Shown here one piece after another: positions 1-64,000 of a stretch of DNA of 64,000 bases. The DNA is from Bacteroidales bacterium (GTDB taxonomy: Bacteria; Bacteroidota; Bacteroidia; Bacteroidales; BM520). Every line of letters starts with the position of its first letter. Positions within the stretch are counted from its first letter, which is position 1. The position numbers and the translations under genes are program-made. Location: NCBI GenBank assembly GCA_016285515.1, contig JAEEQW010000014.1:1-64000 (forward strand). Reading direction: 5' to 3'. The notes under the pieces are model-generated. The model saw only the letters and a list, made by a program, of their open reading frames with translations. It made no database searches and was not told the origin of the DNA.

Positions 1-810
1 CTGACGAGTGGTGTGCTGGCTTACAATCCTGTTAGCGGAAACCTATACGGTTGCAATAGATATTCAAATAATGCGACATTATACAGCATAAACCTTTCGA
101 CAGGGACTGAAACGGCAGTTGCAAACATAAACAGCAATTACCAAACATTATGCATTGCATTTGACCGGAATGGGAGTTGTTACATTTTGGATGTTGCGGG
201 AAACATCAAGCCATTTAATATCGAAACCGGCAGTATCGGAAACCCCATCTATACAATTCCTGGATTTATGGTCAACTATGGCGATTCAAATGCCATGACA
301 TGCGATTTCGAGACCAACACCCTCTATTGCACTTCAGTCGATATGGAAGATAACAAAACCCAGTTGTATTCATTTAATCTTGACAGCGGCACATTCAGTT
401 ATTTAGGCAAATTCCCTATTTTTTGCAACGCACTTGCAATCACATCCTCTATCGGCTGGATGAACGTGGAACCTGTATTCGGCGTGGTTGAGGTTGGTGA
501 AAGCACAACAGTGGCAATGCGGCTCAATGGTGGATGGGCGCAATCAGGCACATTCAATGCCACCTGTTCAATCGTCAACAACGCTACAGATGCAGTCGAA
601 ATCCCAGTCACGATGACCATTGCACAGGAAAAAATCCCTGGGGACGTCAACCTTGACGGCATAGTGAACGTTATCGACATACAGACAGCAGTGGCCTATA
701 TCTGCGGAGGCAATCCTTCAACCTTCGATTTCGACAATGCCGACATCAACGGTGACGGCACTGTCAACATCCTTGACGTGATGCAAATTGTAAACATTAT
801 TTTTTTATAA
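1..810 (+). CDS. Secreted protein with C-terminal dockerin-like pair (5' partial)
   Basis: The reading frame is open to the left edge, so only the C-terminal ~270 residues are visible and the GTG at 13 is not a trusted start. The first ~150 residues have the repetitive 'LYxxNxxTG' look of a beta-propeller or YncE-like repeat region. Next comes a beta-sandwich segment (about 155-210, 'WMNVEPVFGVVEVGES') of the kind found in Bacteroidota secreted proteins. The last ~55 residues form a dockerin-like pair of calcium-loop repeats (GDVNLDGIVNVIDI and ADINGDGTVNILDV), and the protein stops right after VNIIFL. There is no T9SS tail. Function unknown; probably exported or surface associated. Confidence 0.8.
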   Translation: MTSGVLAYNPVSGNLYGCNRYSNNATLYSINLSTGTETAVANINSNYQTLCIAFDRNGSCYILDVAGNIKPFNIETGSIGNPIYTIPGFMVNYGDSNAMTCDFETNTLYCTSVDMEDNKTQLYSFNLDSGTFSYLGKFPIFCNALAITSSIGWMNVEPVFGVVEVGESTTVAMRLNGGWAQSGTFNATCSIVNNATDAVEIPVTMTIAQEKIPGDVNLDGIVNVIDIQTAVAYICGGNPSTFDFDNADINGDGTVNILDVMQIVNIIFL

Positions 811-26632: not shown

Positions 26633-28312
26633 ATGAGAAGGGTTCTTTTTCCGTTATTGCTTTTGCTTTTTGCAGCAAATTTCATCTGCAATGCCCAGAC
26701 AAAAAAGGCCATCATGGAGGATTCCGTGCTGGATGCACCACAATATGCAGTGTATTTCACAGACAAGAACGGCACTCCTTACAGCGTTGACAATCCACTT
26801 GAGTTTCTTTCGCAAAGAGCTTTGGACAGACGTGCAATGCGAGGAATGGCTGTTAATGAAGACGACCTGCCAGTAAGTCCGACATACGTTGCCGGACTTA
26901 CCGCCACAGGCGCTTTCGTGAAATGGACAAGCCGATGGGGTAATCTTGCAATAGTATGTGCAACCGACAATGTCATCCAGCAGATCAGTGAATTGCCGTA
27001 CGTGGATTCGATAGTTTATATCAAACCTTCACTTGACAAGATTCAGACACAGAGTCATAACAACTCAAAATGGGACAATGAGTTTTATCAAGAATATTCT
27101 GGTGGAAACAACAAAGTTGATTACGGTGCTGCGTCAGCTCAGATAGAACAAATTAACGGTGTGCTCGTCCACGATGCCGGTTATCGGGGTGAGGGCATAC
27201 TTATAGCGGTCATTGACGCCGGATTCAGAAACCTAAATCAGATTCCTGAATTTCAGCCGCTTTTCGAGTCCGGCAGGGTAGTGTTTGAAAAGGACATCGT
27301 TGAAATAGGCGGCAATATCTACAGTGGCTCAAGCCATACTCACGGTACTGCAGTAACTTCAACCATGGCAGTCAACAGTCCGGGCTCCTTTGTCGGCACA
27401 GCTCCGGATGCCTCATACGCCTTTATCAGAACCGAAGACGGTGCGACTGAATATCTTGTCGAAGAATACAACTGGATAGTAGGTGCCGAAATGGCTGACA
27501 GCATCGGAGCTGACATCGTCAACTCATCACTCGGCTATTCCACTTTTGACGACCCTAACATGCAAATCCCTTATTCACAGATGGACGGCAATACTTGCAT
27601 TTCATCAATAGCTGTAAAACGGCTCACAGAACGCGGTGTTCATGTGGTGGTCAGTGCCGGGAACTCCAATGGTGACGAGGAATGGCCATGGATTGGAACT
27701 CCTGCCGATGCAGTCGAAGGCATGGCAATTGCTGCCGTTGACCCTCAAGGGAATATAGCAAGTTTCAGCTCCCTCGGTCCAAATGGCGCCGGGGATCCAA
27801 AGCCTAATGTGGCCGCATGTGGTCTGTACTGCACCGTTATCAATGCAAACGGCACAATCGAATATTCCGCCGGAACTTCCATATCAAGTCCTATCACCTG
27901 CGGCATGGTGGCATGTCTCATCCAGGCTTCTCCTATGACAACACCCGCAGAAATGATGGACATTGTCCAACAACACGCCGACAGATATCCCAATACAAGC
28001 ATCTATTATGGTTATGGAATCCCTGATTTCGGCGCATCTTTAAATGAACTTGATGGGATAAATGATAAAGAAAACCTGTCTTTCACTCGAATATATCCCA
28101 ACCCTTCGGATGATGAAATCAATGTTTCATGCAAGATGCAGCCTATCAGCACAATACGTGTCCTTGACATTGCCGGTCGCTGCATAAACGATATCTCAGT
28201 AAATGACTATTTCGCAAAAATGAGTGTGAAAAACATTCTATCAGGGATAGTTTTCATTGAAATCCGACTGGCTGACGGAAAAACTGAAACAAGAAAGATT
28301 ATTGTCAGATAA
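26633..28312 (+). CDS. S8 subtilisin-like protease with T9SS type A sorting tail
   Basis: A 559-residue paralogue of the preceding gene, starting 2 bases after its stop. Signal peptide about 1-21 (ending CNAQ). Triad: Asp195 (VIDAG), His237 (THGTA), Ser416 (GTSIS). The N-terminal propeptide region 'YAVYFTDKNGTPYSVDNP' is nearly the same as that of the neighbour (YAVYFTDKNNSPYSINYP). Instead of accessory domains and a dockerin it ends, from about residue 474, in a T9SS type A domain ('RIYPNPSDDEINV' to 'ETRKIIVR'). Probably exported by T9SS and surface anchored or released. Confidence 0.94.
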   Translation: MRRVLFPLLLLLFAANFICNAQTKKAIMEDSVLDAPQYAVYFTDKNGTPYSVDNPLEFLSQRALDRRAMRGMAVNEDDLPVSPTYVAGLTATGAFVKWTSRWGNLAIVCATDNVIQQISELPYVDSIVYIKPSLDKIQTQSHNNSKWDNEFYQEYSGGNNKVDYGAASAQIEQINGVLVHDAGYRGEGILIAVIDAGFRNLNQIPEFQPLFESGRVVFEKDIVEIGGNIYSGSSHTHGTAVTSTMAVNSPGSFVGTAPDASYAFIRTEDGATEYLVEEYNWIVGAEMADSIGADIVNSSLGYSTFDDPNMQIPYSQMDGNTCISSIAVKRLTERGVHVVVSAGNSNGDEEWPWIGTPADAVEGMAIAAVDPQGNIASFSSLGPNGAGDPKPNVAACGLYCTVINANGTIEYSAGTSISSPITCGMVACLIQASPMTTPAEMMDIVQQHADRYPNTSIYYGYGIPDFGASLNELDGINDKENLSFTRIYPNPSDDEINVSCKMQPISTIRVLDIAGRCINDISVNDYFAKMSVKNILSGIVFIEIRLADGKTETRKIIVR

Positions 28313-47140: not shown

Positions 47141-47141
47141 T

Positions 47142-47561: not shown

Positions 47562-47588
47562 AATGAAATAATATTGGCATTCAGGATA

Positions 47589-48013: not shown

Positions 48014-48835
48014 TAGTGTATTGTACATTGCTCTATATTTAGCCACAATAAGATCCTGTTGTGCCGAGATGAGTTTGTTTTTTTCGCTGAGAAGGTCGGT
48101 GGTGTTTTTCATGCCGAGATTAAACTGTTCACTTACAAGCTCGAAGCTGGTTTGTACTGCATTAAGTTGTTCAGAGGCAGCGAAATACTGTTCCTGTGAA
48201 TTTTTAGCATTGAGCCAAAGTGTTTCGATTGTCATGTACAGAGTTTGAACTTTGTCAAAGAGGTCCAACTTCTGCGATTCAACGTTGATTTTGGCATTTT
48301 CGACATTAGTCTTGTTCTGTTTGTTGTCCAAGATAGGAATTGAAAGGTTGACGCCTATGGAATTGCTCCATCTTCTGTAAACCTGTTCCCCGAAATTCAT
48401 TTCATTGGGGAGATTATGGCTGATTCCGGTACCTGCACTAAGAGAAATATTAGGGAGATAGCCGGCTTTGGCGATTTCGACTGATTGATTGGCTCTATCG
48501 ATATACATTTTGCCCATTTTGATTTCCGGGCGGTTTTCAAGAGCCTTTTCGATAGCTATATTCTTATCAGGGAATGCAGCGAACACATCGCTTTCCGAAT
48601 ATTCAGGTGAAACAACGCCAATATTTATTTCGCCTAATATTTCAAGCAATTGCTTGAGTTGCAGCAAAGCCTGTTGCATGGAGTTTTTGGCTGCAATATA
48701 TGAATACTTGTCATTGGTATATTGTGAGACGAGAGAAGCATAGTCACTTTTTGCAATTGAGCCCACATCGAGCATCACTTTGGCACGCTCCATCTGCAAT
48801 TTTGACACGTTAACATTATCGGCGAATGTGGTCAT
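48010..48835 (-). pseudogene. TolC-like outer membrane efflux gene, truncated at both ends
   Basis: The remaining ~275 residues are TolC-type: 'ISKLQ'-like helix 'VNVSKLQMERAKVMLDVGSI', 'SVEIAKAGYLPNISLSAG', 'SIGVNLSIPILDN', 'ISAQQDLIVAKYRAMYN'. A full protein has ~450 residues and a signal peptide; here the first ~170 residues are missing and sequence upstream of 48835 is non-coding. After RAMYN the frame reads into macA sequence (TLRATLSLMKS) and stops at 47984. Not functional as an outer membrane channel. Confidence 0.85.
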
Positions 48836-48952: not shown

Positions 48953-51805
48953 TTAACGAGCAATAACAACCTTAGTTCTTACAACTTCATTGTCAGCAGT
49001 ATTCACATCAATGAAATACATGCCTGCAGGATAGCTGCTTGTTTCGATGTTAATTGTATTGCCGTTAACAGGTATTGTAGCAACTGCCTGTCCGAGGCTG
49101 TTGTAAATGACTATGCTTGTCATTTCCATACCATTGACAGTCAGTACATTGTTAGCAGGATTAGGATAAACCTTAATATCTGAGTTGAGATCATCACCAA
49201 TACCATCCGGTTCAATCGTTACTTCAACAGAGATAGGATCAGATTCACATTCATTTACGTAAACTGCAGTTACTTCATACAAATATGTACCAGCTGGACG
49301 ATTTGTATCAGTAAATGATTTGGACTTTGTATTCTTTATCATTTCACCGTCACGATAAACGAGATAGTGGTCGAAAGCAGGCATCTTAACGCCGCTTTCC
49401 TGCATTGGAGCAGCTGAGAAAGTGACATTTACTGGAGAAGTATTCATATTGTCAGCTATAGGATTCATAAAGAAGACATCACCCTTAGCATCTGCAAGAC
49501 CGCCCTGGATTGACCAGTTATAGTCAAGGTTAGCTTGTGAACCGCCGCCGGCTTCCCACATTGTTATCCATTCACCGCCAAAATACATCATATTGCCCTT
49601 ATAGTCAACTCTTGGACCTTCATCGCAGCCACCCGGATGACCTGTTGTTGTATTACATCTGTAACCAATCCACAATTCTTCTCTTGCATCAATTGTGACA
49701 GGAGTGTCAAGATATACAAGGTTCCATGCTTTAGTAACTATCTTACTGCCATCAACAGCCTGCTCATATACCAATTCAGATGGACCGGTCTCGTTACCGC
49801 CAACCCATACTCTGATATAGTAATCGCATTGGTCACCTGCAACACCAGGAACGAAGTTGACTGCGACAATATTCATACCGTTATATTCAGCGATATCCCC
49901 AGGTTCGAAACGATGGGCACAGCAGAAATCAGCTGCACTGCCTGTACCGATGGAATTGCTTCCAGCCTGGTCGGATGACCATGAAATCCATGTTGTAGGA
50001 GCAAAAGGATCGATAGGTTCTGACCATGTCAGCTTAACATTCTTCTTTGCAAGGATAGTGTATTCAAGGTTGTTTGCAGGCCAGCATGATGTAACTATTT
50101 CAGTTTCTGCACATGTTGGGAGTGATTCACAGCCATTGTCATAAAGTGCGGTTACACAAACATTGTATTCACCATCTTCGAAACCGTCAACGGAAAATTC
50201 ATATGTATTGCCATTAACACTGCCCATCAAATCACCGTTAACATAGATGTTATATGATTCAATGGCATCTCTGTAAGCTTTAACAGGAGCTGCTCTGAAG
50301 ATACGAGTATGTTCTGCTCTGAGGTCTTTAATGTTACCCTTTGTTTCATCATTTGCAGTAACAGGGCTATTCAAATAAAGCCCCTTGCCATCATTTTGAA
50401 CAAAACCCTGAATTGCCCAGTTATAGTCAAGTCCCAAGTCATATAAAGTCGTCCAACTTCCACCAAAATGCATAAGGTCGCCCTTGCCGGTGACAGCTGG
50501 TCCGTTGTCAACACCTGCAGGATATCCTGTAGTTGTATTGGCAAAATAACCGAACCACAATTCTTCAGCACCTGTGATTGATACAGGAGCATCAAGAGTT
50601 ATTTCATTCCATGCATTCAGTGTTATTTCTTCTGCAGGAACTTCCTGGTTAACAACCATAGTTCCAGGATTTGTGCCACTGGTACCGCCAACCCATACTC
50701 TAACTGTATATGTGCAAGCAGATTCATTAGGAACGAATCTAACCTTAGTGAGTTCATAGCCGCCATAAGGAGCTATTTCAGCAACCTGGAAACGGTGTGC
50801 CACTGAGAATGTTGTAGCAGAACCGGTACCAATACCATTGGTAAAGTCAGGGTCTCCAGCCCATGTAAGCCACTCTTCAGAACTTGGAATATAAGGAGCA
50901 GTCCATGAAATGTTCATTGCATCCAGAGTTGTTGAAACAGTAACTGTTTCAGGAGGTGTACATGTCATGCCCTGAGTTGTGAAATCGCCACAAATCTGAG
51001 GGGAGACACAACCGTCTGTCCATAAAGCTTCAACACAATAGTTGTATGTGGTTTCCATTTCAAGACCAGTATCTGTATATGTTTCAGCTACTGTGTTGCC
51101 TATCAGGGCACCATTACGATAAACATTGTATGATGCTACAGCACCACCTTTATCAATTGCCAATACTTTTTCTTCACCTTTGGCATTTACAACTGTAGTC
51201 TGAATGATGAAGTTATAGTTAAGGTCATTGGCGGTAAGAGTTGTCCAGCTACCTCCAAAACCTACAACATCACCTTTGCCGCTAACAGCAGGACCCGCAT
51301 CAGTACCTGCAGGATATTCTGCTGAACTTGGAGCGGCTACACCGTAACCGAACCAATAAGTCTGATTTGCCTCAATGGTAAATGGGCTTGTCAAAGTAAT
51401 GACATTCATTGATTGTAATGAAGGATTTGGAGCGCTCTGTGTCAACATTGGATTACCACTTGGATTTGCGCCTGTTCCTTTCCATACTTTCACAGTAAAT
51501 GTTCCACTCTGATAAGGAGTGAAAGCAACCTTTGTAACTTGCCAACCCACATAATCGCTGAGTTCACTTGCAAGAAACTTGTGCAGACAATTAAATTCTG
51601 TAGTACTGCCAAGACCGATACCTGAACTTAATTCAGTACCACTCCATGAAAGAATTTCCTCATCACCCTGCTGAGCAGGAGCAGTCCATGAAAGGACAAC
51701 TTTGTTCTTTGATGTAGTCCCCTGCAAGTCTCTTGGAGGATTACACTGGCTCATGCCTACAAAATAACATGCAACCAGAAATAAACTTAATAAAATTTTC
51801 TTCAT
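48953..51805 (-). CDS. Large T9SS surface protein with three tandem repeat domains
   Basis: A 950-residue exported protein with signal peptide ~1-18. Three copies of a ~200-residue domain (about 45-255, 300-500 and 620-800) each contain 'SGIGLGSTTEFNCLHKF'-like, 'YTVRVWVGG'-like and 'WFGYxxNTTTGYPAGxD' stretches ending in 'GGSWTTL...LDYNWxIQ'. They are separated by fibronectin-III-like modules ('NVxWxAP', 'GTYLYEVTAVYVNECES'). The end (from ~868, 'DIKVYPNPANNVLTVNG' to 'TKVVIAR') is a T9SS type A domain. Probably a cell-surface adhesin or ligand-binding protein. Confidence 0.9.
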   Translation of the reverse strand: MKKILLSLFLVACYFVGMSQCNPPRDLQGTTSKNKVVLSWTAPAQQGDEEILSWSGTELSSGIGLGSTTEFNCLHKFLASELSDYVGWQVTKVAFTPYQSGTFTVKVWKGTGANPSGNPMLTQSAPNPSLQSMNVITLTSPFTIEANQTYWFGYGVAAPSSAEYPAGTDAGPAVSGKGDVVGFGGSWTTLTANDLNYNFIIQTTVVNAKGEEKVLAIDKGGAVASYNVYRNGALIGNTVAETYTDTGLEMETTYNYCVEALWTDGCVSPQICGDFTTQGMTCTPPETVTVSTTLDAMNISWTAPYIPSSEEWLTWAGDPDFTNGIGTGSATTFSVAHRFQVAEIAPYGGYELTKVRFVPNESACTYTVRVWVGGTSGTNPGTMVVNQEVPAEEITLNAWNEITLDAPVSITGAEELWFGYFANTTTGYPAGVDNGPAVTGKGDLMHFGGSWTTLYDLGLDYNWAIQGFVQNDGKGLYLNSPVTANDETKGNIKDLRAEHTRIFRAAPVKAYRDAIESYNIYVNGDLMGSVNGNTYEFSVDGFEDGEYNVCVTALYDNGCESLPTCAETEIVTSCWPANNLEYTILAKKNVKLTWSEPIDPFAPTTWISWSSDQAGSNSIGTGSAADFCCAHRFEPGDIAEYNGMNIVAVNFVPGVAGDQCDYYIRVWVGGNETGPSELVYEQAVDGSKIVTKAWNLVYLDTPVTIDAREELWIGYRCNTTTGHPGGCDEGPRVDYKGNMMYFGGEWITMWEAGGGSQANLDYNWSIQGGLADAKGDVFFMNPIADNMNTSPVNVTFSAAPMQESGVKMPAFDHYLVYRDGEMIKNTKSKSFTDTNRPAGTYLYEVTAVYVNECESDPISVEVTIEPDGIGDDLNSDIKVYPNPANNVLTVNGMEMTSIVIYNSLGQAVATIPVNGNTINIETSSYPAGMYFIDVNTADNEVVRTKVVIAR

Positions 51806-51844
51806 TTTTTTTTAATTTTAATTAGTTAAAAGTTAATTATTATA

Positions 51845-54800
51845 CTATTGATTTATAATAAAATTAGCAATTGACATAACATCCATGACATCAATATTTC
51901 CATCAGAATTGAAATCTGCATTGTTATAATTAAACGGATTTGGCTCATTGCTCATAATATAAGCAACTACACTCGCAACATCAAGCACATTAACCACTCC
52001 GTCAGAATTGGCATCACCTTTCGTTCCGGATACAATAGCAGTAACGTTGACATCGTCTAGAACAACTCCGTAACCGTCATTGCATTCAGCCTCGAAAGCG
52101 ATATAATAGTTAGCAGTAACGTTTGGCAGTTCAATTATTCTGTTTTTCCAGGAAGCCACACTGTATTGGTAAGCGGCAAGCAGCTGCCATTCACCGTCTG
52201 TAGCATTTTTGTAATAAACTCTTAATCTGTCCTGATGACCATCGTGAACAGACTGGGCATGCCAGAAAGACAGAACAGGATCAACAGCACCATCAAGATT
52301 CATAACAGGAGAAACGAGTCTGACAACAGTCTCAGAACCGCTTATGAAAGCATTATAGCTGCCTGAATGAGCTTGCATAGGATGACTCTGCAAGCCACCG
52401 TGATTGGTAGTCCAAACGCCCTCACCGGAAACAATTTCCTGAGTCCAGCAATTAGGCAGATCCTCATCTTCAAAACCTTCATCATACGGATACGAACTGA
52501 CTGCAACATTACAGATATCAATAAACGGCTCAAATGCAGCAACGTATGAAAATTCGTAATTACCGGACAATGTTATGGTTGAATAGATTATTTCGCCAAA
52601 TGGCGCATTATCGCTCACATGAATTGTGAAAGCAGCAGTAGCGACTGCACCGTCATTATTGATGTCACCATATTCAACAGGATCAACTGTAATTACAGTT
52701 ACGTATGGATTTGATGTTGTATAAGTTCCATAGACGTTAAGAGCAGGATAGGAACCAATATTACGGAATGAGGCAGTGATGTTCAATGTCTTTCCAGGAA
52801 GCAGTTCACCTTCATAACCATAACTGACAAATTCAATCAAAGGTGCAGCCAAAGTAAGATCCATTTCATAACTCCATACCTCTCCGCCGCATGACATTGT
52901 CAATGTGCAAACTGCCACATGACCATCCGGAGCATCTCCTTCCACATGAACAGAAAGAATGTTTTCCAATACAACAGTATTATCTGATGCGATGTTTGCA
53001 ATCGTAGCCATTGGGATATCAAAAGTGACATACGGGTCGTCGGAAGATATTGAAACAGTAATATTTTCAGCATCTTCAACACCGACATTTCTGATAGTCA
53101 GGTCAAGTCCGTGAGATTCACCATAACTTAACACTTCTGAATTATAGCCCTGAAGAAGGAGGTATGGTCCTGATGGAGCTATACAGTTGATATTCTCGTA
53201 GATTGTTGTAGTGTTGAAACCAGTTACAGTAAGCAGAACTTCACCCGGAAGGAAGTCATTTTCGATTGAAACATAACCTGCTTCATCGGTTAATGCGGAA
53301 TAATATGCTCCGTCCTTGGAAATACATACGATAGCATTTTCAACCGGACCATCCTCGGTGGAGACCACTGTTTCGAAAGGAACACCAATAAGCATCAAAT
53401 CATTGGAAACAGAAATTTCAGCAGGAGTTGCTGTACGCAGTTGTACTGAAGCATCACCGAAAGTACACCATGTATGAGCTGTCTCAACATCGCTTGATGA
53501 TTGTGATTCAGTCAGCATCAGATTTAATGCATTAACAGCGACAGAGCCCCATGTAGTGCGCTGTTCCGTTGTATTGATACCGCTCTGGTCGGGATATTGG
53601 TTATAATCGAAGCCGCCTATAAGCACATCATAGAAATAGTCCTGACCACGCATTGGCGGCAGCCATGGCTGGCTGATGGAGGACATCCATACGACTATCG
53701 CTCCACCGTTTTCTTTTCTCAACCACGCTTCCGCAAAACAATCACCTGATCCGAACATTCCGTTGTCGCATGCAACTGAAGTGATAAAAGGCAATTTGGT
53801 TCCGTTAGAAAGGGAATTGACATTGGAATTGCTGAATCCTGTCGTTCCCCAACTGGTCTGTGAACCATGACCTGTGTATGCAATGGTGGATACACCGGCA
53901 TTGACTGCTGCTGTTACTCCGGATGCGCTTGCACTCGGGTCATATTCGGTATAAAATCCATCATAATTCAAAACAGGATTAAGTCTCTCATTATAAATCC
54001 TATTAACATGTGTATAGTCTATTTCACCGTCATCGCCAGGTCCCTGATTGGATGCAATGCCAAGCGCACTGCTGCGCCATGAATCTGTCATGTCAGGATT
54101 CTTTTCATAATTTATAGTCTTATTGACCTGAACTGTCAACTGAGAAACATTGTTGCATGAAAAACGTCCGACAATGATTTCAGGGAAATTATCGGTACCT
54201 ACCACACATCCGGCCTTTGGGTCAGCAGGCTCACCACTGACTGTGTTTGTCTTAACATCAGCCCAGTCACCTACGAGTTGGACATAGAGTATGTTCGGAT
54301 TTGCGTTATATTTCTGCTGAATTAAACTGGCAACGTTTGTACCGGTGGCAACCAATTCTTCCTCCACATTGTAACCCATTTCCTTTTTCCATGTGATATA
54401 TGGCTGAATTGCTTCCTGGTCACGGGATGTGTAGATGACAAGAATGTCACCGAACTGTGCAACCGGAAGATCCATACGACTCTTACTGTAATTGATGAAA
54501 AGACTTTGATACATGTCTTCCATCTCTCTTAAAGGAGTCAAATCAGTGTTATAAAGAGGATTAGTAGGAGTGTTGTTGTTTTCCAATAATTGAACAGTTA
54601 CATTGGAATATACACGTAATGTGTTAGTTGCAGCATTGTATCTGAAAGGATAAACACGTACTGCAGTACCTCTTACATCTCTGATAATATAAGGAGAATC
54701 AGCAGTTGCAAGATCTGAGGGATAGAATTCATCCACCAAAGATTCCGAAGCAATCTGGTAAGGAATGGTTTCAGGATTCTGGTTTCTGTAAATGACACCG

Positions 54801-55129
54801 CGGGATGGCACTAAAGGATAAGATAACTGATAATCCTTATATGTCGCATCAATTACATTGATGTCATAGTCCTTATCAGCTGCAATCTGAACGGATGCAC
54901 TGATGAAAGGAAGTTCTGCCCAGCCTTTCTTTTCAGTTACTGTTGTAACGTCAAAGACAATCTGGTTGAAAGTCACGCCATCAAAAGAAACTTCTTGTAT
55001 GTCCCATTTTCCAAGTTCAAATGAAACATTGTGCGAAGTTCCTGAAGATGTGTAATTAGTCTGGTATCCTTTTGCAAAGGAAATCAAACTTAAAACAATT
55101 AGCAGATTTGTAATAAGAAGTTTTTTCAT
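51845..55129 (-). CDS. Gingipain-like C25 cysteine protease with dockerin-like end (copy 1)
   Basis: A 1094-residue exported protease. Signal peptide ~1-20; a C25-type propeptide (~20-215, 'TVTEKKGWAELPFISASVQI'); catalytic domain with His421 in 'YTGHGSQTSWGTT' and Cys454 in 'SVACDNGMF'. Ig-like and CARDB-like modules follow, then a MAM/jelly-roll-like module ('CWTQEIVSGEGVWTTNHGG'), and a terminal dockerin-like pair (GDANSDGVVNVLDV; ADFNSDGNIDVMDV) ending at ANFIINQ. No T9SS tail. The DNA of the catalytic part is nearly the same as in copy 3 at 58586-62302. Confidence 0.94.
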   Translation of the reverse strand: MKKLLITNLLIVLSLISFAKGYQTNYTSSGTSHNVSFELGKWDIQEVSFDGVTFNQIVFDVTTVTEKKGWAELPFISASVQIAADKDYDINVIDATYKDYQLSYPLVPSRGVIYRNQNPETIPYQIASESLVDEFYPSDLATADSPYIIRDVRGTAVRVYPFRYNAATNTLRVYSNVTVQLLENNNTPTNPLYNTDLTPLREMEDMYQSLFINYSKSRMDLPVAQFGDILVIYTSRDQEAIQPYITWKKEMGYNVEEELVATGTNVASLIQQKYNANPNILYVQLVGDWADVKTNTVSGEPADPKAGCVVGTDNFPEIIVGRFSCNNVSQLTVQVNKTINYEKNPDMTDSWRSSALGIASNQGPGDDGEIDYTHVNRIYNERLNPVLNYDGFYTEYDPSASASGVTAAVNAGVSTIAYTGHGSQTSWGTTGFSNSNVNSLSNGTKLPFITSVACDNGMFGSGDCFAEAWLRKENGGAIVVWMSSISQPWLPPMRGQDYFYDVLIGGFDYNQYPDQSGINTTEQRTTWGSVAVNALNLMLTESQSSSDVETAHTWCTFGDASVQLRTATPAEISVSNDLMLIGVPFETVVSTEDGPVENAIVCISKDGAYYSALTDEAGYVSIENDFLPGEVLLTVTGFNTTTIYENINCIAPSGPYLLLQGYNSEVLSYGESHGLDLTIRNVGVEDAENITVSISSDDPYVTFDIPMATIANIASDNTVVLENILSVHVEGDAPDGHVAVCTLTMSCGGEVWSYEMDLTLAAPLIEFVSYGYEGELLPGKTLNITASFRNIGSYPALNVYGTYTTSNPYVTVITVDPVEYGDINNDGAVATAAFTIHVSDNAPFGEIIYSTITLSGNYEFSYVAAFEPFIDICNVAVSSYPYDEGFEDEDLPNCWTQEIVSGEGVWTTNHGGLQSHPMQAHSGSYNAFISGSETVVRLVSPVMNLDGAVDPVLSFWHAQSVHDGHQDRLRVYYKNATDGEWQLLAAYQYSVASWKNRIIELPNVTANYYIAFEAECNDGYGVVLDDVNVTAIVSGTKGDANSDGVVNVLDVASVVAYIMSNEPNPFNYNNADFNSDGNIDVMDVMSIANFIINQ
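53430..54470. repeat. Long near-identical DNA block, copy A
   Basis: This catalytic-domain region of C25 copy 1 matches 60600-61640 in C25 copy 3 at a constant offset of 7170 bases, with long runs of perfect identity and scattered substitutions and no indel noticed. Confidence 0.9.
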
Positions 55130-55158
55130 TGTTTATAATTATTTGATTATCAACAAAT

Positions 55159-58100
55159 TTATTTATTCATAATTATGTTCACAATACCCATGACATCCAT
55201 AACATTAATCTCGCCATCACCATTCACATCGGCATTTGCGAAAATGAATATCTCATTAGAGCCATTAATGATATAGTTTACAACTGTCATAATATCGATT
55301 ACGTTTACAACGCCATTACCGTCAGCATCTCCTAACAAAGTGCCTAATTCACCAGTAATTTCAATATCGTCAAGGACAACGCCGTAACCACCATTGAGTT
55401 CAGCTTCGAAAGCTATATAATAATTTGATGAAGGGTTAGGAAGTTCTATTTCTCTCTGTTTCCAGTTTGCAATACTGAACTGATAAGTTGCCAAAAGCTG
55501 CCATTCACCATCAGTTGAGTTCTTATAATAAACACGGAGTTTGTCCTGATGTCCACCAAAAACTGACTGTGAATGCCAGAATGAGAGAACAGGATTTGTG
55601 ATATTAGAAAGGTCAAACATAGGTGTTACAAGTTTGACAGTAGTTGTGTCACCATAAACGAGAGCATTGTAACTTCCGCTGTGAGGATTATAAGGATGGT
55701 GCTGATAACCGCCACTCTGAACACTCCATTCAGCGTAACCGGAAACCACTTCCTGGTTCCAGCATCCTGCAAAATCTCCCTCTTCAAATCCTTCATTGTA
55801 AGGATATGCGCTTATTGCAACATTGCATATATCAATGAATGGGAAGAATTCACCATCGTATGAATAATTGTTGTCAGCAGTAATGGTAACCACCGAATTA
55901 ATGACTGTTCCGTAAGGAGCATTAGGGCTGACTGTAATTGAGAAAGCGCCAGTAGATGTTGCACCGGCAACAATTTCGCCGAATGACACAGGAGTAGTGG
56001 TGTTTACTGTAACGTATTCGCAGTCGGTGGTATATACACCGTAAGCATTATGTACGTCAGCATTACCATTATTTATGAAAGTAACAGTAAGGTTGAGAGT
56101 CTGACCTGGAAGGAGCTGACCTTCAATGCCATTGCTATAGACAGAAAGTGAAGGAGCAACTGTAAGGAAATAAAGACTGTATGTCCATGAGTCTTGACCG
56201 TCAGACATTGTTACAGTACAATTAACTTTGTGATTATCAGGAACAACAGGAGAAACGCTTACTGTAAATGCATCGGAAATGTTAACCACTGCACCAGGAG
56301 CGACATTACCATAGTTAGCGGTATTGTTTGTAAATGTGACATATTCATCTTCCGATGAAATGGTTGCCATAAGATTTACAGCTGTTTCAGAGCCCACGTT
56401 CTTAACTGCAAGACCGATAGTTCCGACTTCAGCATAATCAAACATACCGTCACCATTTGCATCGTTAATTGTGAACGAATTGCCAATCAAATAAGGGCCG
56501 TCAAGGGCTGCACACTCAACATCTTCGATGATAGGAGCGGTGTTAGGACGAGTGATGACAATTCTTGCCTGACCACCGGAAGTGATGACAGGGTTAAGAT
56601 TGACTGTAGCCAAACCGTCATTATCTGCAACAGCAGTTCCATAAAGCACACCGTCTTTGGAGATTGCCACAACAGAACCTGGAAGAGTTGTCACTTCATA
56701 GAAATCAACGCCTATAGGAACTATATCCATGTGTTCAGAGGTGTTGGTGGCTGGAACGCCGAAGTTATATGGCATGATGGAGCCGTCACCGAGGCAATGG
56801 TAAGACTGCCAGTAATAAAGAGGTGATGAGTGTGTACCGTAGTTGCCATCGTGAGCATAGCAGACTGCAAGGTTTCCAAGAAACACTATGGAATTGGTCG
56901 TATTGTATGTCTCTGTCATATCAATACCATCATAAACACCGGTAGAAGAGTTCTGTGGGGTAGGGGTCTGACTCATAACGTTGGTTGCGCCTACGCCCCA
57001 ATAGTAATCTTCATACCAATAAGTACTTGGACATGAACCTATATATGTATAAGCACCCTTATTCTGACCTCTAATCATGGCTTCTGCCAAACAAACACCG
57101 CTATAGCCGAAATCGGCAGCAAGGCAACAGTTACCTATTGCAAGAAAATATTTGTTGGCATTAGTAAGATTGTTGGCATCACTTACGCTGAAACTTGGTG
57201 AAGACCATCCGGTTTCACCACCATGAGCTGTATAATTGGCAACGGAAATACCAGTATTCATCCAGCTGTAGCAATTAGAATAAGATGTCAGATATTTGTG
57301 GACTCCTGTATAGCCATTATCAGCTGTGAAGTGATAAGCTTCCGCATAGTTGATGGCAGGTTGTCCAACCACTGGATTCCAATAACTGTCGGCACCAGCA
57401 ATAAGAAGTGCATCAGACAAATATGAAGGATCACATTCAAGTTTCTCGTAATTGAGAATCTTATTGATAAGGTTGGTCAGTTCAGCGCTTGTTGAAACAC
57501 ACATACGGCTACAGAACATTTCAGGGAAATAGTCGCCGTCAACGGAACTGTAATACAAATCTGTCACTTTTTGGGAAGAGCTTCCCGTTGTATTAGGAAT
57601 CTGTGGCGTATCTCCGACTAATACGAGGAAAGTAGGAGCCTGGTCGTTTTGAACACCAGTATTGTACTTGTCATAAACAAAATTTTTGATGTTGTTATAT
57701 GAAACACCTGTTTCAGATGTATAATGCACATCCATGTAGAAACCTTTCTCCAGTTTCCATTCGATCCATGGCGCAAGTTCCGATGCCCATGCATCAGGAG
57801 CTATGACAAGCATGTAAGTAGGAGTCTGATAAAGGTCAGGATGGTCATCATATACATCACGGTTGAACAGTTGTTTATATACAGGCTGGAAATAAATGCT
57901 GAAAGTTGACTCATAGAGCGACGTTGTAGCTTCTACATCAGCATTATCAAAAACAATCTCAAGTTCAATATTGTTTCTGACAATTATTCTATTTTCAGAA
58001 ACATCATAAACTACAGGGTTGACAGTAAGAGCACCGATGGTTACTCCACGCATGGTTCCCAACACCTGAACTGTAGCAATTTCTCTTTCATCAAAACCCT

Positions 58101-58545
58101 TCTGAGCGTATGCTGAAGCATTGTAAACGAATTTGATATCTTCCGGCTTTGCGTCCTTTTTTACTGAAGGCTGATGCGGATAAAGTGTCTCAATGCCATA
58201 ATCAGAAAGATTATACTGAGTTTCCGTATAATTTCTGACAACGACACGAGGGGTGGCACCCTGAGGGACAGCAATAAGCTGACGAGCTGCAGGAAGTTCT
58301 GGAGTACCATCCGCACCCGTAGGGTAGGTGTTAGGAATGGTGATTTGTGAAAAGTTCCCCTTTTCAGTGGAAATCAATGTGCTTTGGATAGCATCGAAAG
58401 AGAATGTCGCATCAAAGCTTTGCATTGTGGAGTTAGTGCATTCTTGTTTTGCACCAGTAGTGCTTAGCACAATAGTGCCCTTCTGTGCGTATGACATCAT
58501 GAAACAGAAAGCTGCCATTGATACTAATAATACTTTTTTCATCAT
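55159..58545 (-). CDS. Gingipain-like C25 cysteine protease with dockerin-like end (copy 2)
   Basis: A 1128-residue exported protein. Signal ~1-20; propeptide to ~240; catalytic domain with His441 in 'YTAHGGETGWSS' and a double cysteine Cys473-Cys474 in 'AIGNCCLAADFG', where alignment with copy 1 points to Cys474 as nucleophile. Its catalytic part is clearly diverged from copies 1 and 3, while the C-terminal MAM-like module ('CWNQEVVSGYAEWSVQSGG') and dockerin-like pair (GDADGNGVVNVIDI; ADVNGDGEINVMDV, ending VNIIMNK) resemble copy 1. Confidence 0.93.
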   Translation of the reverse strand: MMKKVLLVSMAAFCFMMSYAQKGTIVLSTTGAKQECTNSTMQSFDATFSFDAIQSTLISTEKGNFSQITIPNTYPTGADGTPELPAARQLIAVPQGATPRVVVRNYTETQYNLSDYGIETLYPHQPSVKKDAKPEDIKFVYNASAYAQKGFDEREIATVQVLGTMRGVTIGALTVNPVVYDVSENRIIVRNNIELEIVFDNADVEATTSLYESTFSIYFQPVYKQLFNRDVYDDHPDLYQTPTYMLVIAPDAWASELAPWIEWKLEKGFYMDVHYTSETGVSYNNIKNFVYDKYNTGVQNDQAPTFLVLVGDTPQIPNTTGSSSQKVTDLYYSSVDGDYFPEMFCSRMCVSTSAELTNLINKILNYEKLECDPSYLSDALLIAGADSYWNPVVGQPAINYAEAYHFTADNGYTGVHKYLTSYSNCYSWMNTGISVANYTAHGGETGWSSPSFSVSDANNLTNANKYFLAIGNCCLAADFGYSGVCLAEAMIRGQNKGAYTYIGSCPSTYWYEDYYWGVGATNVMSQTPTPQNSSTGVYDGIDMTETYNTTNSIVFLGNLAVCYAHDGNYGTHSSPLYYWQSYHCLGDGSIMPYNFGVPATNTSEHMDIVPIGVDFYEVTTLPGSVVAISKDGVLYGTAVADNDGLATVNLNPVITSGGQARIVITRPNTAPIIEDVECAALDGPYLIGNSFTINDANGDGMFDYAEVGTIGLAVKNVGSETAVNLMATISSEDEYVTFTNNTANYGNVAPGAVVNISDAFTVSVSPVVPDNHKVNCTVTMSDGQDSWTYSLYFLTVAPSLSVYSNGIEGQLLPGQTLNLTVTFINNGNADVHNAYGVYTTDCEYVTVNTTTPVSFGEIVAGATSTGAFSITVSPNAPYGTVINSVVTITADNNYSYDGEFFPFIDICNVAISAYPYNEGFEEGDFAGCWNQEVVSGYAEWSVQSGGYQHHPYNPHSGSYNALVYGDTTTVKLVTPMFDLSNITNPVLSFWHSQSVFGGHQDKLRVYYKNSTDGEWQLLATYQFSIANWKQREIELPNPSSNYYIAFEAELNGGYGVVLDDIEITGELGTLLGDADGNGVVNVIDIMTVVNYIINGSNEIFIFANADVNGDGEINVMDVMGIVNIIMNK

Positions 58546-58585
58546 CTAACGAATTAATTAATTGATTAATAATATTTTATATAAT

Positions 58586-61500
58586 TTATTGTCCAACAAT
58601 AATATTTACAATACCAATTATATCAAGTATGGAAATAACCCCATCGGAGTTGACATCGGCATTTTCGAAAATGAATGTGTCCGGATTGCCTTCCATCATA
58701 TAGTTGATAACTGTCATTATATCAGTGATGTTTACCAACATGTCACCATTAGCATCTCCCGTAATATCGGAAATCACACCGCCTTCGCATGCAAGTGTAA
58801 ATGCGAAACCTGGTTTGTTGACTGAACCGTCGGACGTGAATTTGACAGTCAGATCACCCAATGTTGAGACAACATCAATGGAACCAGTACCTGTATAAGT
58901 GCCTATAGCGTTTCCGGATGCGGATTCACCATCATATATATATATGTAATCCCAATTGTTTTCTACGTCATACGTGCCAGTTATATGAGCCATTGCTCCA
59001 TTGAGTCCCGGATGTATAACAGCAATAGCATTGCAGTTATTCGAATAGTTGGCATCAGGACCGCCGTTATCATAGAGCATACCTGCACATGTTGTTATTT
59101 CTATAGTTCCGCTTGTCGGCATATTGAACATATCGGCACATATACCTTCGACACATGCAATCTGACCAACACAACCGTCAGTGAATGTTACAACCACGCA
59201 GTACATGTATGTGCCATCCTGAAGACCTTCATCGGTATAGCTTGTAGCTGTTGTTGTGGCAATCAGCACATCATCCCTGTAAATGTCATAATGGTCAACG
59301 TCGCCCATTGGAGCAGTCCATGAAATGATCATGGTTCCGCCACCACCTGCTGTTGCAGAAAGATCCTTAACTCCGGCGCACTGAACAGAACAATCCATTA
59401 CAAATTCATACAAGAAACCTGCAGCAGGATGTGATTTACTATAAATTTCAACACCATTGTCGGCGTAAGAAACAACGAATGAGCATTCTGAGTCATAACT
59501 GCCTGACTGCCATGCAAGTGTCACAGTAGTACCAGAATTGACTTCGAGAGTAAACGATGCTTCATGACCAGAAGAAAACGTCAATGACTGTGACGGTGAA
59601 CCGTCACTGAAGGAAACGAGCAATGCCGCATTGTTCCATCCGTCACCGTATGTATCGGAAAGGTCGAACTGCAAGTTACAGCTATTGGAAATCGTAAAAG
59701 TACCTTCACCAGTAATATCGCCGTCATCTCCTGACAATGCCAAGGAGAAACCAATAACCTCAGTAAGAGGGCAATCATCGGATATAGTAACACTATATGT
59801 TGCTGTAGCAGCTCCATTTACAGCAATATCACCGAATGACTGAGTGGCCCCATTTATTGTTACATATTCACTTGAAGAGGTAAGTGTACCTTCAACATTC
59901 TCAACAAAATAGCTACCGATATTGAAGATTGAGACAACCAATTCGAGGGTTTCGCCTGCTTCGTATGAACCATTCCATGAAACCGAACTAAAAACAATAA
60001 CAGGTTTATGAGCTGTAATCGTGAATGAAGCAGTCCATGTCGTATCGGCATCCGTAGCGGAAACATTGAATGTGAACACGTGACCGTCCTCGATTTCAGG
60101 ACTGACTGTAATATTGAAGCCATCACCTGTTCCATAGTCATTGGCTGCAATTGCATCGAAAGTAACTGTTGCATTGTTTATTGCAAGTAATTCATCTTCA
60201 GATGAAATGGTTACTTCCACAGCTCCATTTGTAGGATAATTGCCTACGTTTTCAAGAGTAATTGACAAATTGGTTGTTTCTCCGTAACTGAGTATGCCGT
60301 CACCATCAAGCTGATAGGCTTCAAAGGTTAGGTATGCACCGTCAGGAGAGATACAATTGATAGTCTCATAAACAGTCTGCAAGTTGAAACCGGTCACGAC
60401 CAACAGGACTTCACCAGGTAAAATGGAATGCTCGATTTCGACAATACCGTTTTCATCGGTTGTACCTGAGAAATACTGTCCATTCTGAGAAATGCAGACA
60501 AGTGCATTGGCAACAGGGCCATCGGATGTTGTGATGGTGGTTGTATAAGGGACACCTATTAACATTACTGTATTTGACACTGTCACTTCAGCAGGAGTTG
60601 CTGTACGAAGTTGTACTGAAGCATCTCCGAAAGTACACCATGTATGAGCTGTTTCAACATCGCTTGATGTTTGTGATTCAGTCAGCATCAGGTTTGATGC
60701 ATTGACAACGATAGAGCCCCATGTGGTGCGCTGTTCCGTTGTATTGATACCGCTTTGGTCGGAATATTGGCTATAATCGAAGCCGCCTATAAGCACATCA
60801 TAGAAATAGTCCTGACCACGCATTGGCGGCTGCCATGGCTGGCTGATGGAAGACATCCATGCGACTATCGCTCCACCGTTTTCTTTTCTCAACCACGCTT
60901 CAGCAAAACAATCACCTGACTCGAATGTTCCGTTGTTGCACGCAACTGAAGTGATAAAAGGTAACTTGGCACCGTTGGAAAGGGAATTGACATTGGAATT
61001 GCTGAACCCTGTCGTTCCCCAACTGGTCTGTGAACCATGACCTGTGTATGCAATGGTGGATACTCCGGCATTGACTGCTGTTGTTACGCCGGATGCACTT
61101 GCACTCGGGTCATATTCGGTATAAAATCCATCATAATTCAAAACAGGATTAAGTCTCTCATTATAAATCCTGTTAACATGGGTATAGTCTATTTCACCAT
61201 CATCGCCAGGTCCCTGACTGGATGCAATACCAAGCGCTTTGCTTTGCCACGAACTTGTCATGTCAGGATTCTTTTCATAATTTATAGTCTTATTGACCTG
61301 AACTGTCAGCTGAGAAACATTGTTGCATGAAAAACGTCCGACTGCGATTTCAGGGAAATTATCTGTACCTACCACACATCCAGCCTTTGGGTCAGCAGGC
61401 TCACCACTGACTGTGTTTGTCTTAACATCAGCCCAGTCACCTACGAGTTGGACATAGAGTAAGTTCGGATTTGCGTTATATTTCTGCTGAATTAAACTGG

Positions 61501-62302
61501 CAACGTTTGTACCGGTGGCAACCAATTCTTCCTGCACGTTGTAACCCATTTCCTTTTTCCATGTGATATATGGCTGAATTGCGTCCTGGTCGCGGGATGT
61601 GTAGATGACGAGAATGTCACCATGCTGTGCCATCGGGAGATCATAACGACTCTTGTCGAAATTAAGGAAAAGACTTTCATAAACGCCAATCATTTCTCTG
61701 ACAGGAGTTGTGTTTTCCCTGAGAAGAGGGTTGGTTGCAGGTTCGTTGTTTTCAACAAGCTGCACGGTGATTTCGGAATATACACGCAAAATGTTGGTGG
61801 CAGCATTGTATTGGAAAGGATAAACGTGAACTGAAGTGCCTCTGACATCTCTGATAATGTATGGTGCATCAGCGACTGCGATGTCAGAAGGGTAGAAGCT
61901 GTCAACGATTGAAGCAGGGTCAATCATGTAAGGTATATCGTCAGGATTCTGATTCCTGTATATAATTCCACGTGAAGGTAATAAAGGATATGACAACTGA
62001 TAATCCTTATAACTTGAAGATGATATCTTCAAATCAACATTCTTTTGAGCAGGAAGTTGAATGGCAGCACTGACGAAAGGAAGTTCTGCCCAGCCTTTCT
62101 TCTCAGTTACCAGGGAACCAGAGAATTCAATGGAATTGTAAGTGACTCCATCGAAAGTGGATTCGTCAAGGCTCCATTTGTCTAAAGTAAATGTAATTTG
62201 ATGTGTGTCTGTAGCAGGTTGGTTGTATGAAACACTTACTCCTTGTGCGAAAAGGGTAGTACAACTCACTATCACTGCAATTGTTGTAAATATTTTTCTC
62301 AT
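58586..62302 (-). CDS. Gingipain-like C25 cysteine protease with CUB and dockerin-like end (copy 3)
   Basis: A 1238-residue exported protease. Signal ~1-19; propeptide; catalytic His422 (YTGHGSQTSWGTT) and Cys455 (SVACNNGTF). After CARDB-like domains come a 'DTYGDGWNN' domain (~875-965), a fibronectin-III-like module (~970-1055), a CUB-like domain (~1060-1175, with 'YDVENNWDYIYIYDG'), and a terminal dockerin-like pair (GDANGDMLVNITDI; ADVNSDGVISILDI) ending VNIIVGQ. Its C-terminal half is nearly the same as the partial gene at the right edge, and its catalytic half the same as copy 1. Confidence 0.94.
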   Translation of the reverse strand: MRKIFTTIAVIVSCTTLFAQGVSVSYNQPATDTHQITFTLDKWSLDESTFDGVTYNSIEFSGSLVTEKKGWAELPFVSAAIQLPAQKNVDLKISSSSYKDYQLSYPLLPSRGIIYRNQNPDDIPYMIDPASIVDSFYPSDIAVADAPYIIRDVRGTSVHVYPFQYNAATNILRVYSEITVQLVENNEPATNPLLRENTTPVREMIGVYESLFLNFDKSRYDLPMAQHGDILVIYTSRDQDAIQPYITWKKEMGYNVQEELVATGTNVASLIQQKYNANPNLLYVQLVGDWADVKTNTVSGEPADPKAGCVVGTDNFPEIAVGRFSCNNVSQLTVQVNKTINYEKNPDMTSSWQSKALGIASSQGPGDDGEIDYTHVNRIYNERLNPVLNYDGFYTEYDPSASASGVTTAVNAGVSTIAYTGHGSQTSWGTTGFSNSNVNSLSNGAKLPFITSVACNNGTFESGDCFAEAWLRKENGGAIVAWMSSISQPWQPPMRGQDYFYDVLIGGFDYSQYSDQSGINTTEQRTTWGSIVVNASNLMLTESQTSSDVETAHTWCTFGDASVQLRTATPAEVTVSNTVMLIGVPYTTTITTSDGPVANALVCISQNGQYFSGTTDENGIVEIEHSILPGEVLLVVTGFNLQTVYETINCISPDGAYLTFEAYQLDGDGILSYGETTNLSITLENVGNYPTNGAVEVTISSEDELLAINNATVTFDAIAANDYGTGDGFNITVSPEIEDGHVFTFNVSATDADTTWTASFTITAHKPVIVFSSVSWNGSYEAGETLELVVSIFNIGSYFVENVEGTLTSSSEYVTINGATQSFGDIAVNGAATATYSVTISDDCPLTEVIGFSLALSGDDGDITGEGTFTISNSCNLQFDLSDTYGDGWNNAALLVSFSDGSPSQSLTFSSGHEASFTLEVNSGTTVTLAWQSGSYDSECSFVVSYADNGVEIYSKSHPAAGFLYEFVMDCSVQCAGVKDLSATAGGGGTMIISWTAPMGDVDHYDIYRDDVLIATTTATSYTDEGLQDGTYMYCVVVTFTDGCVGQIACVEGICADMFNMPTSGTIEITTCAGMLYDNGGPDANYSNNCNAIAVIHPGLNGAMAHITGTYDVENNWDYIYIYDGESASGNAIGTYTGTGSIDVVSTLGDLTVKFTSDGSVNKPGFAFTLACEGGVISDITGDANGDMLVNITDIMTVINYMMEGNPDTFIFENADVNSDGVISILDIIGIVNIIVGQ
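58740..59625. repeat. Duplicated C-terminal domain DNA, copy A
   Basis: The region coding for the 'GDGWN', fibronectin-III and CUB-like modules of C25 copy 3 matches 63117-64000 at an offset of about 4377 bases with high identity. Confidence 0.85.
60600..61640. repeat. Long near-identical DNA block, copy B
   Basis: Partner of 53430-54470 (offset 7170). Similarity weakens outside the block, for example in the propeptide and accessory domains, more than expected for a simple whole-gene duplication. Confidence 0.9.
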
Positions 62303-62333
62303 TCTTATTCTTAAATCTTTAATTATAAAGAAT

Positions 62334-62364
62334 AAAAGGAGGCTGACAGTTTCAGCCTCCTTTT
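62334..62364 (-). terminator. Intrinsic terminator
   Basis: AAAAGGAGGCTGA and TCAGCCTCCTTTT form a long hairpin with a short loop just after the stop of the right-edge gene (minus strand), separating it from the C25 copy 3 gene. Confidence 0.85.
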
Positions 62365-62374
62365 ATAAAAATTA

Positions 62375-64000
62375 TTATTTCTGATAAATCAATTTTATCG
62401 ATTTGGAAGTGATTCCGTTACCCTTTACGGTTACGAAATAAATGCCGTTGTTGATTGAACCCGGTTTCCAGACATAGCTGCTTGAGTTGGAAACATCAAC
62501 TGAATTGATGGTCTGTCCATATACATTGGTGATTACAAGCTGAGCATTGGAAGTTGGTTCAAAGTTAATTGTTACGCTTTCATTGAACGGGTTAGGATAA
62601 ACATTGAAATTACTGTCAACATCGTTGATTCCGAGGTAATTCTTTATCAGGACTTCGCAGCCGGAAACTTCAGCAAGCTGAGTGTTAGCATCATTCAAAG
62701 TAGCATCACCAACATAGAATAATGGAGTGCGTCCTTCAGGAATCGATGCACCTTCAAGGCTGTATCCTATAATGGTATATTTTCCATCTTCAATCTTTGT
62801 TGCAGTTTGGAAATCATACAGAGCTTCAAGTGAAGTTACTGTTGATTCATCGTTAATGTCAAAGTTGAACATGAAAGCTGTAATTTCAACTGGAGTACTG
62901 ATATAGAAAACACCGTCTTCGATAATGTAATATGCTGTTTCAGATTCACCGCAATCATCGTATTTGTTATTGAAGATAATGTTGACAATCAACTGAACAT
63001 CAAGGATATTGATTATACCATCAGCATTAACATCAGCATTGTCGAATATAAAATCGGCAGGATTCTCACCCAACATATACATTATAGCTACAGTAATATC
63101 GAGAACATTGACTGTAAAGTCGCCATTAGCATCTCCTGGAATATCGGAAACCATACCGCCTTCGCAGGCAAGTACAAATTCGAAACCTGATTTGGTGACT
63201 GAACCGTCGGACGTGAATTTGACAGTCAGAGCTCCCAATGTTGAAACAACATCAAGGGTACCTGTGCCTGTATAAGTTCCAATAGCAGTTCCGGATGCGG
63301 ATTCACCATCATAGATATAAATGTAATCCCAATTGTTTTCAACTTCATACGTACCAGTTATATGAACCATCGCTCCATTGAGTCCCGGATGTATAACAGC
63401 GATGCCATTGCAGTTATTCGAATAGTTGGCATTAGGACCACCGTCATCATAAAGCAAACCTGCACATGTTGTTATTTCTAAAGTTCCGCTTGTCGGCATA
63501 TTGAACATATCGGCACATACACCTTCGACACATGCTGTCTGACCAACGCAACCGTCAGTGAATGTTACAACCACACAGTAAACATAAATGCCATCCTCAA
63601 GACCTTCATCGGTATAGCTTGTAGCTGTTGTTGTGGCAATCAGCACATCATCCCTGTAAAGGTCATAATGGTCAACGTCGCCCATTGGGGCACTCCATGA
63701 AATTTCCATAGTTCCGCCACCGCCTGCTGTTGCAGCAAGATTCTTAACTCCGGCGCACTGAACTGTGCAATCCATTATGAATTCAAACAGGAAACCTGAA
63801 GAAGGATGTGAGATACTATATATTTCAATTCCGCTGTCAGCGTATGAAACAACGAATGAGCATTCTGAGTCATAACTACCTGACTGCCATGTAAGTGTCA
63901 CATTAGTACCTGAGTTAACTTCGATAGTAAATGATGCTTCATGACCGGAAGAGAACGTTAATGACTGTGAAGGTGAACCGTCACTGAAGGAAACGAGCAA
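62375..64000 (-). CDS. Surface protein with CUB, dockerin-like, cohesin-like segment and T9SS tail (5' partial)
   Basis: The frame is open through the right edge, so the N-terminus (possibly a protease domain as in copy 3) is not seen. Visible order: 'GDGWN'-type domain end (~1-75), fibronectin-III-like (~80-165), CUB-like (~170-285), dockerin-like pair (~288-346; GDANGDFTVNVLDI, ADVNADGIINILDV), a ~105-residue beta-rich segment ('YISTPVEITAFMFNFDI', 'IIGYSLEGASIPEGR') that resembles a cohesin-type sandwich, and a T9SS type A tail (~455-541, 'FNVYPNPFNESVTINF'). The only protein here with both dockerin and T9SS tail. Confidence 0.88.
   Translation of the reverse strand: MLVSFSDGSPSQSLTFSSGHEASFTIEVNSGTNVTLTWQSGSYDSECSFVVSYADSGIEIYSISHPSSGFLFEFIMDCTVQCAGVKNLAATAGGGGTMEISWSAPMGDVDHYDLYRDDVLIATTTATSYTDEGLEDGIYVYCVVVTFTDGCVGQTACVEGVCADMFNMPTSGTLEITTCAGLLYDDGGPNANYSNNCNGIAVIHPGLNGAMVHITGTYEVENNWDYIYIYDGESASGTAIGTYTGTGTLDVVSTLGALTVKFTSDGSVTKSGFEFVLACEGGMVSDIPGDANGDFTVNVLDITVAIMYMLGENPADFIFDNADVNADGIINILDVQLIVNIIFNNKYDDCGESETAYYIIEDGVFYISTPVEITAFMFNFDINDESTVTSLEALYDFQTATKIEDGKYTIIGYSLEGASIPEGRTPLFYVGDATLNDANTQLAEVSGCEVLIKNYLGINDVDSNFNVYPNPFNESVTINFEPTSNAQLVITNVYGQTINSVDVSNSSSYVWKPGSINNGIYFVTVKGNGITSKSIKLIYQK
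62640..62960 (-). other. Cohesin-like beta-sandwich segment (within the right-edge gene)
   Basis: About 105 residues between the dockerin-like pair and the T9SS tail. 'TPVEITAFMFNFDI' followed by 'IIGYSLEGASIPEGRTPLFY' follows the recalled 'TPIAGFQF...GFSxxGxxIPxG' pattern of cohesin-superfamily domains in Bacteroidota secreted proteins. The fold call is by pattern only. Confidence 0.4.
63117..64000. repeat. Duplicated C-terminal domain DNA, copy B
   Basis: Partner of 58740-59625; continues past the right edge of the window, so its full extent is unknown. Confidence 0.85.

Follow-up and report, generated by a model that had tools for sequence, protein, structure and literature searches.

Dockerin-tailed gingipain-like proteases in a Bacteroidales bacterium and a putative cellulosome-like surface complex

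The window, meaning the whole stretch of 64,000 nucleotides that was analysed, is part of contig C2 of a Bacteroidales genome of 2.58 Mb (98% complete, 54 contigs). At 48953-64000 it contains five consecutive minus-strand ORFs separated by intergenic gaps of 29-72 bases, a five-gene cluster as the earlier note had proposed. The features of this cluster and of other dockerin- and subtilase-encoding genes in the window are as follows.

1..810, plus strand: 3' part of a gene truncated by the contig start, whose protein terminates in a dockerin (637-798)
23805..26630, plus strand: S8 subtilase with a terminal dockerin (26451-26591) and without a T9SS tail
26633..28312, plus strand: T9SS-tailed S8 subtilase (tail 28091-28306), which in congeners forms one ORF with the preceding S8 protein
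48953..51805, minus strand: surface protein with fn3-like domains and a type A CTD (T9SS tail) at 48962-49171, no dockerin (ORF and domain matches)
51845..55129, minus strand: C25 (gingipain-like) protease with signal peptide, propeptide, C25, Ig-like domains, MAM and C-terminal dockerin, no T9SS tail (Pfam, own tail profile)
51857..52021, minus strand: dockerin of protease 51845-55129, both calcium loops intact
55159..58545, minus strand: C25 protease with signal peptide, propeptide, C25, C25_C, MAM and C-terminal dockerin, no T9SS tail (Pfam, own tail profile)
55177..55335, minus strand: dockerin of protease 55159-58545
58586..62302, minus strand: C25 protease with signal peptide, propeptide, C25, fn3, CUB and C-terminal dockerin, no T9SS tail (Pfam, own tail profile)
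58619..58759, minus strand: dockerin of protease 58586-62302
62375..64000, minus strand: 3' portion of the gene for a fourth C25 protease, encoding CUB, dockerin, cohesin-like domain and T9SS tail
62402..62602, minus strand: T9SS CTD of the fourth protease (domain match; fold match to mirolase CTD 8qb1)
62627..62938, minus strand: domain X, of cohesin fold, flanked by the dockerin and the T9SS tail (profile match, AF2 model)
62978..63139, minus strand: dockerin of the fourth protease

The three complete proteases of the cluster are unambiguous in their domain content. Each matches C25 (E 1e-48 to 1e-54) together with the C25 propeptide, and each carries a C-terminal Dockerin_1 match (E 1e-8 to 1e-9), all above the curated Pfam cut-offs; the His-Cys pair shows in the translations as HG and NCC / ACDN motifs, and the proteins belong on these grounds to peptidase family C25. 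The dockerins are type-I-like, the stop codon follows 3-10 residues past the dockerin end, and neither Pfam (Por_Secre_tail) nor our own tail profile detects a T9SS tail in any of the three. The earlier claim that these proteases end in pairs of dockerin calcium loops is therefore borne out, both loops being intact. The same note had placed two T9SS-tailed proteins beside them; the tails are present in 48953-51805 and 62375-64000, but the second of these proteins is itself a fourth C25 protease with a dockerin. As a separate observation, the NCBIfam model NF045500 ('Omp28-related selenoprotein') matches two unrelated proteins, 55159-58545 and L053:6007-7605, over the dockerin only; the model therefore contains a dockerin tail and may put a wrong name on proteins that have a dockerin.

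The full gene of the fourth protease extends past the window end (contig C2:62375-66757, 1460 aa), and its architecture, from Pfam and the translation, is C25, CUB, dockerin, a cohesin-like domain (X) and a T9SS tail. A sequence search of the PDB with the X domain gave nothing useful, unlike the fold search: the AF2 model, of moderate confidence (pLDDT 74, pTM 0.59), has cohesins as its best VIA matches, with Z up to 10.1. Against the genome's own cohesins the X domain aligns with a probability of 88 and E 3e-6 (hhalign). The domain that follows matches the T9SS CTDs of mirolase, PorU and PorZ (8qb1, 6za2, 5m11) in a fold search of its AF2 model. Given such X domains, some dockerins could pair within one chain.

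Elsewhere in the window, only 2 bases separate the S8-dockerin gene from the S8-tail gene. Next to the protease cluster, at 46019-48835, lies an efflux-type operon encoding a MacB-like permease, an ATPase, a membrane-fusion protein and a TolC-like protein. The last three are all seemingly shortened (an ATPase of 139 aa without its middle part, a fusion protein of 132 aa and a TolC-like ORF of 283 aa), which looks like decay or assembly gaps.

Across the genome 37 dockerins were found, every one with two intact calcium loops; chance matches are excluded by this number and this uniformity. The possibility that the matches are ordinary EF-hands was also ruled out, the duplicated dockerin pattern being present in 37 of 37. 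The dockerin is the last domain in 28 of these proteins, precedes X and a T9SS tail in eight, and is N-terminal in one; where the 5' end of a dockerin ORF is complete, the encoded N-terminus nearly always resembles a signal peptide. Proteases make up 12 of the 37 (seven C25, two C10, two S8 and one M14). Seven of the ten C25 proteins of the genome bear a dockerin, the other three being two PorU-type sortases and one T9SS-tailed protein. The non-protease cargo includes a Porphyromonas-type peptidyl-arginine deiminase, two Omp28 proteins, two BspA-type LRR proteins, proteins with InlB repeats, BNR or beta-helix domains, and others of unknown type. At E <= 1e-3 Pfam detects neither glycoside hydrolases nor carbohydrate-binding modules in the dockerin proteins or in the scaffoldins described below. 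By this test the system does not qualify as a cellulosome in the strict sense, with plant-polysaccharide cargo and a cellulose-binding module; the looser description of a cellulosome-like set, namely several enzymes with duplicated-loop dockerins, is satisfied by the 37 dockerins, 12 of them on peptidases. Besides the deiminase, a single hydrolase of a different type was seen in the dockerin set, a dockerin-tailed alpha/beta-hydrolase (esterase or S9-like; contig C52, L061:1650-2765). The deiminase gene lies close to a C25 protease gene both here (L053:6007-11556, contig C39) and in the congener G001 (C1:245-251 kb), with a dockerin in this genome and a T9SS tail in G001.

The absence of a cohesin-type partner from the genome would have refuted the earlier note; instead, 24 cohesins were found, 20 of which lie in three T9SS-tailed scaffoldins. 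The Pfam Cohesin model flags contig C25:211-222 kb, where two adjacent scaffoldins (S1 and S2, of 2466 and 1239 aa) each begin with a signal peptide, carry cohesins and InlB-type repeats, and end in a T9SS tail. Because this model alone detects few of the repeats and would undercount them, a cohesin profile was built from the cohesins of this scaffoldin pair; it gives zero matches in six cohesin-free relatives. The third scaffoldin, S3, is encoded at contig C18:49618-60933 (3771 aa). Domain maps place eight, five and seven cohesins in S1, S2 and S3, respectively, with a T9SS tail at the end of each, so that all three qualify as multi-cohesin scaffoldins and, like the fourth window protease, as T9SS-tailed proteins. 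All 12 matches of the cohesin profile in the PDB are cohesin or scaffoldin chains (best E 4e-8), and the fold is backed by an AF2 model (pLDDT 97) for which each of the 50 top Foldseek matches listed is a cohesin. The genome further encodes a putative lipoprotein with a single cohesin; the gene for the single-cohesin protein adjoins an S8-dockerin gene here and a dockerin gene in the congener G002. The S1-S2 pair lies directly upstream of purE, a site at which no scaffoldin is present in the congeners G001 and G003. A profile scan of genome contigs with a close cohesin subset returned few loci, the nearest being RGIG7150 (water buffalo abomasum).

Two further cohesin proteins have unusual architectures. 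At contig C45:83872-86604 (L076) a C10 (streptopain-type) peptidase is fused to at least two cohesins before the contig end cuts the gene, so that the protein would seem to be scaffoldin and protease in one. At contig C47:32636-37663 (L054) a protein of 1675 aa has an N-terminal cohesin, 17 InlB-type repeats and a C-terminal dockerin, X domain and T9SS tail, and is a possible adaptor scaffoldin.

Among the genomes searched, the genus contains one other carrier, G002, a fragmented metagenome-assembled genome; G001, G003 and G004 have no dockerins or cohesins of this type. Dockerins are thus confined, within the genus, to the two members that also have multi-cohesin proteins. The non-carrier congeners have a T9SS tail at the end of their C25 orthologues, and dockerin-bearing proteins fall into four orthogroups of the C25 tree, each nested among T9SS-tailed orthologues. 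The tandem pair at 58586 and 55159 in the window is matched in G001 by a tandem pair with tails, at 49-52% identity. Both carriers have a dockerin on the deiminase, whereas a T9SS tail is present on that of G001 and on three sister-genus proteins; because the sister-genus deiminases carry T9SS tails, the dockerin is here the derived state. The subtilase pair is a single S8-S8-tail chain in G001, and is likewise fused in G004 up to the contig end. In the window the first S8 domain is followed by a linker domain, a dockerin and a stop, and then by a new start, a signal peptide, the second S8 domain and the tail. The direction of change is settled for the deiminase family but not for the subtilase pair. 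An assembly artefact of one genome was ruled out, since the G002 orthologues have the same tails at ~95% identity. This exchange of tails, of which the subtilase pair is the clearest case, is the strongest evidence for a complex, albeit evidence drawn from gene sequences alone.

The association of the two modules extends beyond the genus. In a sample of 119 relatives from 113 genera, cohesins occur in 22 of 24 dockerin-bearing genomes as against 17 of 95 without dockerins (Fisher p 2e-11, uncorrected for phylogeny). One genome of another family in the same order, G054, has the same layout, with S8 peptidases among its cargo, and represents a second dockerin-rich Bacteroidales family. Its loci (L196-L207, L215) encode at least 45 dockerins, cohesin proteins, dockerin-X-CTD proteins and FG-GAP and S8 cargo. 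G100, also dockerin-rich and of the same order, was rejected as a further example, its matches being internal and weak.

Taken together, these findings suggest, with a probability of roughly 0.8, that the products of the cluster are the enzyme subunits of a cellulosome-like surface complex for protein degradation, both binding and surface location being inferred from sequence. It appears that most of the gingipain-like and other secreted proteases of this gut-type Bacteroidales bacterium are hung on large surface scaffold proteins by dockerin-cohesin contacts, although no binding has been shown. In this scheme the dockerins would bind the scaffoldin cohesins with calcium after Sec export, and the scaffoldins would pass the SprA pore, after which their own T9SS tails would anchor them to the surface. 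This would put the proteases on display as an array of exchangeable enzymes for protein digestion, with the deiminase and putative binding proteins of InlB or LRR type among its subunits. The earlier note had proposed that the dockerins attach the proteases to a surface partner in a protease counterpart of a cellulosome; that proposal gains support from the scaffoldins and from the tailed orthologues in cohesin-free congeners, in the absence of data on binding or location. Not every dockerin need bind these cohesins, as cohesin/dockerin specificity is undetermined.

The export route is supported to differing degrees. The genome contains a T9SS, including SprA and a PorU far over its cut-off, and this system is known to move folded proteins (PMC9251779). 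Since the scaffoldins are tailed, they most likely reach the surface by the T9SS, holding their enzymes by the dockerin. The outer-membrane crossing of the tail-less enzymes is the least certain step, for which co-export bound to a T9SS-tailed cohesin protein is favoured at somewhat less than even odds. The enzymes have no recognisable export signal of their own, and co-export on a scaffoldin is therefore the simplest route, an inference without direct test. In its full form, which remains tentative, the idea is that the dockerin serves as an exchangeable substitute for the T9SS tail, such that folded tail-less enzymes bind tailed cohesin proteins in the periplasm and are co-translocated through SprA. 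If true, a single tailed scaffoldin would export and display up to eight enzymes lacking an export signal, a hitch-hiker mode of T9SS export. A search by terms in a review of T9SS effectors yielded nothing on the export of tail-less partners.

Other explanations of the dockerins must be weighed. Sec signal peptides without any recognised outer-membrane export signal would also be expected of proteases that stay in the periplasm and dock there on cohesins, for example on a lipoprotein at the inner face of the outer membrane. Such retention is distinctly improbable in view of the T9SS tails that the scaffoldins bear, and the C25, S8 and deiminase orthologues of congeners are T9SS-tailed as well, so that the enzyme family evidently acts outside. 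The dockerin could alternatively be an export tail in its own right, recognised directly by the T9SS or another system, with the proteases released or anchored without scaffoldins. It does occupy the CTD position of the orthologues, but it is helical, unlike the CTD beta-sandwich, its restriction within the genus to the two members with multi-cohesin proteins would be unaccounted for, and it would be redundant in the eight proteins that have both dockerin and CTD; little credence is given to this reading.

Equally hard to credit is a purely intrachain role, in which the dockerin forms a structural or regulatory pair with the adjacent X domain or acts as a calcium-stabilised tail. The dockerin-X-CTD arrangement of eight proteins, with an X of cohesin fold, is what this role would predict, and adjacent dockerins and cohesins also occur in other families of the order. 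However, 28 of the 37 dockerin proteins end at the dockerin without an X, three large scaffoldins with 20 cohesins would be left roleless, and the division of the congeners' S8-S8-tail chain into two proteins here is hard to explain without an intermolecular bond. Docking on the scaffoldins accordingly remains the preferred reading. It makes testable whether type IX secretion can export tail-less proteins carried on a tailed partner, for which a natural comparison exists in congeners that have the same enzymes with a T9SS tail and without cohesins.

The gingipains of Porphyromonas gingivalis are C25 proteases with a propeptide, made by a T9SS-bearing Bacteroidales host that has a peptidyl-arginine deiminase in the same secreted set. 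They carry their own T9SS tail, in whose place a dockerin is found here, and the present system would be an alternative to their one-enzyme-one-anchor layout: a natural surface-display system in a diderm with interchangeable plug-in enzymes.

The claim that this is a new way to display gingipain-like enzymes must be softened by a predicted precedent. For Ca. Stygibacter (Cloacimonadota), a published account predicts dockerin-tailed C25 and S8 peptidases and a multi-cohesin scaffoldin, 3,755 aa long, that bears a C-terminal sorting domain (PMC8542988). That organism belongs to another phylum, its cargo mixes GH18/GH57 enzymes with peptidases, and its one scaffoldin has CBMs; the section consulted neither compares these proteins with orthologues that bear tails nor discusses the way out of the cell for enzymes without one. 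The 'Planctosome' of the Nemodlikiaceae (Planctomycetes) is a hypothesised peptide-degrading cohesin-dockerin complex with peptidases including M14; it differs, in the description consulted, in a lamin-tail-domain protein anchor, single cohesins, no C25 and no T9SS described (PMC6461901). The Mucinolysome of Limousia (Firmicutes) is a non-cellulose cellulosome-like system with some dockerin peptidases, but its enzymes are mainly mucin glycosidases and its host is a monoderm (PMC12997984). The same 2026 paper states that no such system had been described outside Firmicutes and regards it as surprising, unexplained and in need of investigation that Bacteroidetes genomes contain cohesins together with dockerins (PMC12997984). 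A near-complete genome now supplies cohesins and dockerins together with protease-centred cargo and T9SS-tailed scaffoldins. The parts are known; no description of a T9SS-built, protease-centred Bacteroidales scaffoldin system with dockerins replacing tails was found in the open-access literature searched.

The clostridial cellulosome (CipA/CipC, type I) likewise has multi-cohesin scaffoldins and enzymes with C-terminal type-I dockerins, its cohesin fold matches ours with a TM of about 0.8, and the single-cohesin putative lipoprotein here may act as a surface anchor like its anchoring scaffoldins. Unlike it, the present system has protease and deiminase cargo, no glycoside hydrolase or cellulose-binding module seen, and a diderm host, and its scaffoldins end in T9SS tails and use InlB-type repeats as spacers.
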